A stretch of 64,000 nt of DNA from Lachnospiraceae bacterium (GTDB lineage Bacteria > Bacillota > Clostridia > Lachnospirales > Lachnospiraceae): contig JAFUXA010000007.1 of assembly GCA_017470985.1 (NCBI GenBank), positions 31,252-95,251 on the forward strand, given 5' to 3'. Shown here in pieces: positions 15,225 to 45,656 of the stretch. The translations under genes and the position numbers were made by a program. Below the pieces are notes generated by a model. It had not been told where the DNA came from, searched no databases, and saw nothing but the letters and a program-made list of their open reading frames with translations. The first letter of the stretch is position 1. Each line of letters opens with the position of its first letter.

Positions 15225-16151
15225 ATGGATAAAATAGCAGTACTTATACCATGCTATAATGAATCTCAGACAATAGAGAAAGTAGTGACAGATTTCAAAC
15301 GGGCATTGCCTGACGCTGTCGTTTATGTATATGACAATAATTCCACAGATAACACTGCTGAGATTGCAGCGGCAGCAGGTGCTGTTGTTCGACATGAGTA
15401 TCAGCAGGGCAAGGGAAATGTTATTCGCCGTATGTTTAGAGACATAGATGCCCAGTGCTATCTCATGGTGGATGGTGATGACACATATCCGGCAGAGTTT
15501 GCGCCGGAGATGGCAGCTAAGGTCTTGGAGAGAAATGTGGATATGGTTGTGGGAGACAGATTGTCTTCTACTTATTTTGAGGAGAACAAGAGACCATTTC
15601 ATAACTTCGGAAATTCTCTGGTTCGCTGGTCCATTAATAAATTATTCCACAATGATATCAAGGATATCATGACTGGTTACAGAGCTTTCTCTTATCAGTT
15701 TGTGAAGACATTTCCTGTATTATCACAGGGCTTTGAGATTGAGACAGAGATGACAATCCATGCATCTGACAAGAATATGTTCATGGAAAATGTTGTTATA
15801 GAATATCGTGACAGACCGGAAGGTTCAGAGTCCAAGCTGAATACATATTCAGACGGTATGAAGGTTTTGCTTACCATTGCAGGGCTTTTTAGAAATTATA
15901 AGCCTATGGCTTTCTTTGGAGCTATATCAATTATTTTGATGCTTCTTGGTGTGGTATTTTTGATTCCGGTATTGGTTGAATATGCAAATACCGGTTTGGT
16001 TGAGCGATTCCCAACACTTATAGTGTGTGGCTTCGTTTTTCTGACAGCTATTATCTCGTTCTTCTCAGGAATGATTTTACAGACAATAGCTCACAAGAAT
16101 CGCCAGGACTTCGAAATGGAGTTGCAGCGCGTCGCTCACGACGTCAAGTAA
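15225..16151 (+). CDS. Polyprenyl-phosphate sugar transferase with C-terminal membrane helices (GT2)
   Basis: A 308-residue GT2 enzyme that should transfer a sugar to undecaprenyl phosphate. Seen: AVLIPCYNESQTIEKVV at 5-21, YDNNSTDNT at 36-44, MVDGDDTYPAE at 81-91 and two C-terminal membrane segments at about 229-251 and 263-286, as in GtrB/Csb-type transferases. It follows gtrA by 17 bases. This is the second lipid-phosphate transferase of the locus (the other is at 3958), so two different activated sugars may be supplied outside the cell. A large inverted-repeat cluster follows its stop. Confidence 0.87.
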   Translation: MDKIAVLIPCYNESQTIEKVVTDFKRALPDAVVYVYDNNSTDNTAEIAAAAGAVVRHEYQQGKGNVIRRMFRDIDAQCYLMVDGDDTYPAEFAPEMAAKVLERNVDMVVGDRLSSTYFEENKRPFHNFGNSLVRWSINKLFHNDIKDIMTGYRAFSYQFVKTFPVLSQGFEIETEMTIHASDKNMFMENVVIEYRDRPEGSESKLNTYSDGMKVLLTIAGLFRNYKPMAFFGAISIILMLLGVVFLIPVLVEYANTGLVERFPTLIVCGFVFLTAIISFFSGMILQTIAHKNRQDFEMELQRVAHDVK

Positions 16152-16316
16152 TTAGAATATTTATTGTTGTGATAGTTATCTATTATCAGGATCGCTTCCG
16201 CTACCTGCTCGCACCAGCGGTACTAAATTTGCTGCGCTTGTGCTTGCTCATTAAGTACCGGGGCTCGCAATGTTCCTGATATATAGATAACTATCACAAC
16301 AATTCAATTAGTTAAT
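16152..16316. repeat. Long nested inverted repeat, copy A (reverse orientation)
   Basis: Arms at 16163-16191 and 16274-16303 are complementary over about 29 bases with a single one-base indel. Inside, GGTACTaAA at 16219-16227 faces TTaAGTACC at 16251-16259, enclosing a GC-rich apical part. Read on the reverse strand it has the order (C/T)ACTTAA...TTTAGTA then a CGAG/AAGCG-rich segment, the same order as copies B and C. No open frame of note is inside. Its arms are AT-rich and could also end transcription of the upstream operon. Confidence 0.85.
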
Positions 16317-16344
16317 TGCACTTGAAATCCTGACCAACGCAGGG

Positions 16345-16500
16345 CTGGTAGGTATGCGGAACCAGTATCTATTTACAGGAACGTGGAAAACGCCGGCACT
16401 TAACGAAGAAGCGATAGCTTCTGAGTTTAGTATCCGCTGCGTTTTCCCCGTAACGAGAGTGTTCCTGATAATAGATACTGGTTCCACCTACCGGAATAAT
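16345..16500. repeat. Long nested inverted repeat, copy B (forward orientation)
   Basis: Outer arms at 16347-16382 and 16461-16492 are complementary apart from a 4-base insertion (ATGC) in the left arm and a small AT difference. Within lie a perfect 9-bp stem (GGAAAACGC at 16385-16393 with GCGTTTTCC at 16439-16447), the core pair CACTTAA 16397-16403 and TTTAGTA 16426-16432, and an apical AGAAGC/GCTTCT stem (16407-16422). It lies directly behind copy A and before the UDP-sugar pyrophosphorylase gene. Arms share the middle segment TATCTATTATCAGGA with copy A, while the remaining stem sequence differs. Confidence 0.87.
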
Positions 16501-16557
16501 TGGTTAAATAAACATCGGGGGTATAAGGGGAAGAATTTGAGTGGAGGTTACTTTGAA

Positions 16558-32358: not shown

Positions 32359-32373
32359 TTGTACTGATTATAG

Positions 32374-32570
32374 TTCCAGCTTCGAGCTGAGCAAATGTCT
32401 CTCAGAGGAACCCTTAGAAGCGACAGCACTTAACGAGCTTTAGCGAGTTTAGTACTGCTTCGCTTCTACGGGAGCGAGAGCGCTTCCGCGAGAGATATAT
32501 GCTCAGCGATGAAGCGGATATGTGATTACGCTTCTACGGGAGCGAGAGCGCTTCCGAAAGAGATATACCC
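32374..32570. repeat. Long nested inverted repeat, copy C, with a duplicated right half
   Basis: Outer arms at 32376-32410 and 32484-32517 share GAAGC, GCTGAGCA and CTCTC/GAGAGA blocks in complementary order. The inner stem is perfect (TAGAAGCGA at 32415-32423 with TCGCTTCTA at 32460-32468), and the core CACTTAA 32427-32433 and TTTAGTA 32448-32454 is as in copy B. A 28-base segment at 32461-32488 is repeated exactly at 32529-32556, so the right half is duplicated with a 68-base period. It lies between valS and deoC. Confidence 0.85.
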
Positions 32571-32624
32571 GTCAAACACGGACTATTATAATTTTTATTC
32601 AAATTTATCAAGGAGAGTATAAAT

Positions 32625-45014: not shown

Positions 45015-45280
45015 GAATATTCCGCAACCGCCTAAGATGCAGCAGAATCTCTCGGCGGCCCTCTCCGGCGCACTAAATGTGACGCCTAAAGAGGACACGC
45101 CTGCGTCTACTGCTTCTAAGGCGCTTGCTGTATTAACGTAATAGTAGCTGGGACCTTAGGCAGAATAGACGAAGGGTTCTTCCTCCAAGGCTTACATGTA
45201 GTAAGCCGGGAGGGAGACCCTGAGAGATTCTGTTCTGCGTTAGGTACCAGCGGCCGATTAGGCGCTTGCGGAATATCTAA
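45015..45280. repeat. Long nested inverted repeat, copy D (diverged, reverse orientation)
   Basis: Outer blocks ATTCCGCAA 45019-45027, CGCCTAA 45029-45035 and CAGAATCTCTC 45043-45053 pair in nested order with GAGAGATTCTG 45222-45232, TTAGGCG 45258-45264 and TTGCGGAAT 45266-45274. Read in reverse it shows the core elements ACGTTAATA...CATTTAGTG and a CCGAGAGAT...TGCTGC segment resembling the right side of copy C. A second internal hairpin, GGCTTAC/GTAAGCC at 45189-45207, is flanked by GGGTTCTTCCTCC and GGGAGGGAGACCC. It fills the gap between the methyltransferase and the ribosomal promoter; no gene is seen there. Confidence 0.75.
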
Positions 45281-45422: not shown

Positions 45423-45656
45423 TGCTGTGACATTGATAGCGTTGAAGCGTGAGGTTGCTGCTGATAATCGACCATAGTTATTGGCAGGTTTTCCGTGGAG
45501 CGAATGTCAAGTTAGGAAACTGGCGACAAGTCACTGTACCCAATAATGTCTACCACGAGAGTAGAAACACGTGTGTAAATCCGTAGGACACACACGGAGG
45601 AGTGTACAGTCACCGCTTGTCGTACAATATTAAGTACGAAGGAGGCGACTTTTTTT
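45423..45656 (+). promoter_or_regulatory. Structured 5' leader of the S10 operon
   Basis: A 230-base leader with several hairpins: TCTAC/GTAGA at 45549-45565, CGTGTGT facing ACACACG at 45570-45596, a long enclosing pairing of CGACAAGTCACTGTAC (45524-45539) with GTACAGTCACCGCTTGTCG (45604-45622), and CGTAC/GTACG at 45621-45638 just before GGAGG. The last two share a few bases and so are partly alternative. A seven-T run lies between the ribosome binding site and the rpsJ ATG. By analogy with other S10 operons it is probably an autoregulatory leader, with L4 as the obvious candidate ligand; I did not recognise a named RNA family. Confidence 0.65.

Follow-up and report, generated by a model that had tools for sequence, protein, structure and literature searches.

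ERIC, BOX, RUP and Correia-type repeats are imperfect intergenic palindromes of about 100 bp that have no gene of their own, and within each such family the arms share one sequence. The element described here differs from these repeats, as they are generally described, in that its outer arms vary from copy to copy.

In the descriptions cited here, REPs measure 20-40 bp and for the most part carry a GTAG or CGTC tag, and a link to RAYT genes is described for REPINs (PMC3116915; PMC3733652). The REP doublets within REPINs are inverted, and the authors of one of these accounts draw a comparison with IS200/IS605 transposition (PMC3116915). As far as those descriptions go, the present element is like REPs and REPINs in being extragenic, present in many copies, able to form hairpins, arranged in inverted doublets and marked by compensatory changes in its less conserved part. 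It is unlike them in that its core alone spans 80-104 nt, with an RNA-like fold and a GNRA loop, and in that Y1 transposase genes do not track it in the genomes sampled. Many cores contain a GTAG, but the column of its T holds T in 38, G in 29, A in 9 and C in 4 of 80 rows. Given that the tests of RAYT linkage, size and tag fail, the element is not filed as a REPIN, though its organisation is much alike; it is here called a new form of intergenic palindromic repeat with an RNA-like core.

A further point of comparison is the maintenance of hairpins by template switching, for which multi-base repairs and loop inversions are given as the expected marks, with loop inversions reported as very rare in that study's own data (PMC8794818). 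Both multi-base repair of pairing and a loop inversion occur in the present element; the study, in the part considered here, deals with RNA genes including rRNA, whereas the element is a dispersed intergenic repeat (PMC8794818).

Two hairpins between genes and a third copy

The window, that is, the whole stretch of 64,000 nucleotides that was analysed, is part of contig C8 in a draft genome of 2.38 Mb and 35 contigs. Copies A and B of the element are two long imperfect hairpins between a glycosyltransferase-like and a nucleotidyltransferase-like ORF (Table 1). The two long nested inverted repeats of the original prediction are real: the arms of copy A pair perfectly over 21 nt (16163-16183/16283-16303), those of copy B pair at 88% over 32 nt (16351-16382/16461-16492), and the stretch 16140-16510 has a folding energy of -156.9 kcal/mol where 100 shuffles average -91.06 (sd 5.55), which gives a z score of -11.86. 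The common core that had been proposed is also borne out, in that A and B fit one covariance model. The two were said to lie head to tail in opposite orientation; they are mutually inverted, but the 5' sides of the cores face each other. Copy A is closed, in the predicted fold, by an outermost stem between 16144-16152, the end of the upstream gene, and 16315-16325; the first of these lies outside the block that is absent from the sister species G002 and the second lies within it.

Table 1. Features of the window, with positions counted from its first letter
Feature	Position	Strand	Basis or remark
Glycosyltransferase-like ORF	15225-16151		Name read from translation; on one side of A+B
A+B block	16153-16511		Both hairpins inside; without counterpart at the orthologous place in sister species G002
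Copy A, whole hairpin	16163-16303	-	Outer arms 16163-16186 and 16279-16303
Arm segment common to A and B	16177-16191	+	Inverted copy at 16463-16477 (-)
Core of copy A	16187-16278	- (RNA-like strand)	Covariance model, 83.2 bits
GNRA tetraloop GGAA, copy A	16196-16199	-	Sequence and family counts
Copy B, whole hairpin	~16347-16492	+	Arm pairing and fold
Core of copy B	16376-16467	+	Covariance model, 79.4 bits
GNRA tetraloop GAGA, copy B	16455-16458	+	Sequence
Nucleotidyltransferase-like ORF	Coding probably from ~16558		Name read from translation; listed start further upstream, inside copy B
Copy C with arms	32366-32527	+	Between two co-directional ORFs; closing pair 32366/32527
Core of copy C	32406-32488	+	Covariance model, 76.4 bits
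Repeat of the 3' (GNRA-side) half of copy C	32509-32556	+	Weak match, 15.6 bits, E 0.11; sequence

The arm segment that A and B were predicted to share, TATCTATTATCAGGA, is exact in both, and it recurs with two mismatches at 16366-16380; three such matches were found in none of 100 shuffles. The proposed origin of the pair, duplication and then divergence, can be upheld in part at most, given that 15 nt of arm are held in common while the cores of A and B belong to two different sub-types and the pair, of about 358 bp, is present or absent as one block. In G002, contig C10, positions 39826 and 39827 are adjacent where matches to the window stop at 16152 and resume at 16511. The difference is either an insertion or a precise loss, and no target-site duplication, which together with terminal inverted repeats would mark a MITE of a known IS, was seen by eye at this clean empty site.

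The original prediction also named copies C and D. A third copy does lie in the window, and its region (32366-32575) folds at z -8.48; half-element repeats resembling the one that follows it are found at loci L070 and L076. A further region, 45017-45276, has no match to the covariance model at E <= 1 and is therefore no fourth copy, though it may be related to the element. It is a different, larger structured region (z -9.71) upstream of an S10-Clostridia ribosomal protein leader (RF03136) at 45434-45529, which scores 90.2 bits. Sequence similar to 45017-45276 adjoins several elements, as in the left flank of L004 and L098, and there the conserved stem motif seems to be turned inside out: GAGTTAAGTGC ... 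GCACTAAACTC.

A family of repeats and its distribution

The genome of the window was first searched at the DNA level, which gave further dispersed copies of the core. A covariance model, R1, was built from 13 copies and has 20 matches in the same draft genome at E <= 0.1, so the search that had been suggested for other copies did find them. At E <= 0.001, R1 is positive in 16 of 61 genomes including this one; all 16 are among the 37 from the window's family, and none of the 24 genomes from other families of the same order is positive. A broader model, R2, from 101 matches of which 80 are distinct, finds the element in 158 of 397 sampled genomes of the family, with copy numbers that are lower bounds, as 11 candidates per genome were scored. 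Seven of 291 genomes in a sample of the class are positive, all seven from the window's family. One relative, G018, has 69 matches within 396 kb. Five stretches of G018 whose first position is a contig end (L352, L353, L356, L357 and L361) open inside an element; the repeat therefore probably breaks assembly, and the true copy number may be higher. One carrier whose title does not mark it as a MAG is Eubacterium sp. MSJ-21, with loci L148 and L209.

An exact pattern for the core has at least 80 matches; among those listed, the titles are Lachnospiraceae (38), Agathobacter (19), Eubacteriaceae (12), Eubacterium (4), Fusicatenibacter (3), and Butyrivibrio, Clostridium, Clostridia and Thermoflexaceae (1 each). 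The 12 listed matches titled Eubacteriaceae come from one MAG, which is placed within the window's family. The element appears to occur in a single bacterial family, which the titles of the matching records give as Lachnospiraceae. The pattern has no match in viral contigs, and 16152-16500 has none in plasmids and phages. A scan of the window against Rfam 15 at the gathering score returns S10-Clostridia only, and a scan of eight loci at E <= 1 returns only T-box and a weak U6, neither on the core. Among the publications listed in literature searches, no title or opening of an abstract describes an element of this kind.

Listed ORFs cross 5 of the 20 copies in the window's genome, four of them short (64-87 aa) and the other the start-extended ORF at copy B. 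Orientation relative to the flanking ORFs is 12 ++, 6 -- and 2 +- for these 20 copies, and 16 ++, 25 --, 11 +- and 8 -+ for the 60 of 69 G018 copies that could be judged; such inconsistency argues against a simple mRNA leader. Elements within 1.5 kb of each other are in the -/+ arrangement in 18 of 19 cases in G018 (the other is -/-) and in 9 of 13 cases in set A4, described below, where 3 are ++ and 1 is -/-. Between the 18 inverted G018 pairs no shared cargo was found: six enclose an ORF of more than 100 aa, of an ordinary kind as read, and the rest A+T-rich DNA. At L056:1640-2360 in G013, a unit of about 60 nt is repeated many times between two inverted elements.

An RNA-like core within copy-specific arms

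Read on the RNA-like strand, the core begins with an outer stem (GGAAC/GUUCC type), which is followed by a variable inner stem, the conserved stem, a free apical loop and a small hairpin with a GNRA loop. The conserved stem, CACUUAA..UUUAGUA, has a U.U mismatch, seen on either side in 77 of 80 rows, and a tandem G.A, seen in 68 to 72 of 80 rows per column. The GNRA tetraloop is found in 80 of 80 rows, in 68 of 68 in A3, the set from G018, and in 75 of 77 in A4, a separate set; these counts are to be read with the model alignments fitted to structure and a search that may itself favour GNRA loops. A4 consists of 77 matches from 61 of the 62 loci given, copies outside the model-building sets; it shares no row with A2, with which A3 shares 4 of 69 rows.

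The original prediction was to be refuted by a lack of other copies or of compensatory changes in their stems; neither is the case, and compensatory change is plain in A4. Pairing is found in 89.1% of cells against 71.5% when shuffled, and double changes are found in 23 of 26 core pairs, amounting to 434 cells against 138 in shuffled and 25-88 in slid controls. Selection had been proposed on structure rather than on sequence; structure is indeed kept while sequence changes, but the core sequence is conserved too. Among A4 core pairs in which Watson-Crick together with either G-U or A-C makes up at least 90%, 33 G-U stand against 5 A-C. For pairs more than 90% Watson-Crick, with those below 90% excluded, A2 has 8 G-U and 3 A-C, and A3 has 15 and 2. 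When G-U and A-C are treated by one symmetric rule, A3 yields 46 G-U and 62 A-C, where 60 of the 62 A-C fall at column pair 15/123 and 31 of the 46 G-U at 19/116. Maintenance of the core at the DNA level, as a pooled count of 31 G-U to 39 A-C would have it, was rejected, since that count stems from columns that are unpaired in some sub-types. A tRNA control for G-U against A-C was dropped, with 4 of 8 tRNAs usable, which is too few. DNA loops are not known to require a purine at loop position 3. The strand asymmetry and the strict purine at that position point to an RNA-like core, and the argument, made from sequence, holds because core G-U far exceeds A-C. In two copies, L357:7222-7321 and L345:1717-1805, the imperfect conserved stem is now a perfect palindrome.

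The outer arms, of 20-40 bp and outside the core, differ from copy to copy. The left arm of an A4 copy scores a median of 18 against its own right arm (74 of 77 copies scored, 3 below 8) and a median of 1 against an arm of another copy (300 draws), and own-arm pairing with non-pairing between copies was likewise seen in an earlier set of 92 non-duplicate copies with flanks long enough. Where cores are at least 99% identical, the outer left arms average 53% identity in G018 (15 pairs; left arms only, from the 13 of 21 copies with regular arm length) and 46% in G112 (11 pairs), and the arms still pair within each copy. Flank similarity drops about 60 nt from the core and rises a second time where partner hairpins lie. 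Isolated mismatches in the arms comprise 52 G-U, 43 A-C and 71 others in 149 copies (non-duplicate, with flanks long enough), and 44 G-U, 32 A-C and 72 others in A4. The arms have at most a slight preference for G-U.

Orthologous copies were compared as pairs in the same orientation, leaving out the inverted L034/L102 and L048/L111 as well as L041 and L004/L112. Core, arm and flank diverge by 2.7, 6.9 and 15.7% from G002 (12 pairs) and by 8.4, 39.9 and 40.1% from G001 (4 pairs). The arm changes relative to G002 are 46 one-sided, 4 two-sided and still paired, and 2 two-sided otherwise, with 2.2 two-sided changes expected if the sides were independent; relative to G001 they are 31, 15 and 8, with 12.1 two-sided expected. 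Compensation in the arms is above chance but accumulates slowly, given that most arm changes in close orthologues are one-sided (46 against 6). The original reading of arm complementarity as a sign of selection on RNA structure is not supported as it stands, in view of the slight G-U excess in the arms and the mostly one-sided changes.

Multi-base events are also seen. In 2 of 58 G018 copies, the perfect complement of one strand of the conserved stem has taken the place of the other strand, with several mismatches removed together, and a comparison of L048 with L111 shows an outer palindrome of unchanged direction around an inner part that is inverted. These are marks of hairpin-templated copying. 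At another locus, a terminator-like hairpin of the window's genome is uninterrupted, and in G002 its loop contains an element, near which is a copy cut to its left half; one copy that is whole in G002 is left only in part in the window's genome. Gene conversion, as an alternative to recent spread, could account for the identical cores within G018 or G112. Copying of the arms from the target was considered and rejected: the outer arms of different copies are about half identical, and the empty sites compared have no arms.

Candidate partners and competing explanations

A search of 41 genomes was made for each of Y1 transposase, IS110 transposase and reverse transcriptase. Within the family, and in drafts that may be incomplete, 7 of 12 genomes with the element have Y1, 8 of 12 IS110 (E <= 0.001) and 6 of 12 RVT_1 (E <= 0.001); for genomes without the element the figures are 8 of 13, 10 of 13 and 7 of 13, respectively. 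None of the three tracks the element across these genomes, and each was rejected as its partner. Two genomes with the element, G013 and G024, have no match to any of them, in drafts that may be incomplete; G013, 86% complete, has 20 element matches. No element lies in 30 Y1 loci, 10 of which are from element-bearing genomes. Of the 57 IS110 and reverse-transcriptase loci, 42 were run through the model and gave two matches, both at one G018 locus, as the density of elements in G018 would give.

The reading favoured here, and judged somewhat probable from the sequence comparisons, is of a REPIN-like, non-autonomous intergenic repeat with a core that works at the RNA level and arms that are kept complementary largely by hairpin-templated copying. 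The core would act as RNA and be bound by a factor supplied in trans, and the element's spread would be non-autonomous and analogous to that of REPINs. The arms would not be read for their sequence. Their pairing would be restored largely by template switching, in which one arm serves as the template for the other during DNA replication, and weaker selection for pairing may act alongside.

A structured RNA that works in place, either an sRNA or an mRNA element, with selection on the folding of arms and core together and copies that are now immobile, would explain the GNRA loop, the excess of G-U and the slow change of the core at orthologous places. It sits poorly with the slight G-U excess in the arms, with the inconsistent orientation to ORFs and with a sister species that has no A+B, and is considered unlikely. 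Rather less is expected of a palindrome that functions as DNA, a single-strand hairpin or cruciform recognised by a recombinase or transposase, with RNA irrelevant. The nearly strand-symmetric arm mismatches, the inversion and deletions at hairpins, and the parallels to IS200/IS605 drawn by the REPIN authors in the account cited (PMC3116915) are all consistent with it; the core G-U excess, the strict purine at loop position 3 and the want of any association with Y1 argue against it. That a young core entered a separate and older hairpin repeat at its tips, with that repeat as the source of the divergent arms, is very improbable despite near-identical cores beside divergent arms at a sharp boundary, and is largely refuted in the examined part of G018, where all 24 hits of a 5' flank motif in 396 kb sit on elements (14 match the core regex, 9 have a variant, perfected or decayed core, and 1 is cut by a stretch end) and no arms-only hairpin was found by that motif.

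To the favoured reading of a REPIN-like repeat with an RNA-level core can be added a more speculative step, which is held to be improbable as yet: the element would be a SINE-like one of bacteria, formed by a small folded RNA with no gene of its own, present across a single bacterial family in tens to hundreds of copies, spread by a machine that acts in trans and with copy-specific arms rebuilt by hairpin-templated DNA copying. If this were so, RNA-level and DNA-level forces would shape different parts of one hairpin. The element adds a common repeat family, without a match in two Rfam 15 scans, to a major family of gut bacteria. Covariation is usually taken as proof of selection on RNA. Here one hairpin combines an RNA-like core with arms in which pairing seems to be in part a by-product of replication, and the question of whether covariation reflects RNA selection thereby becomes testable in closely related genomes.
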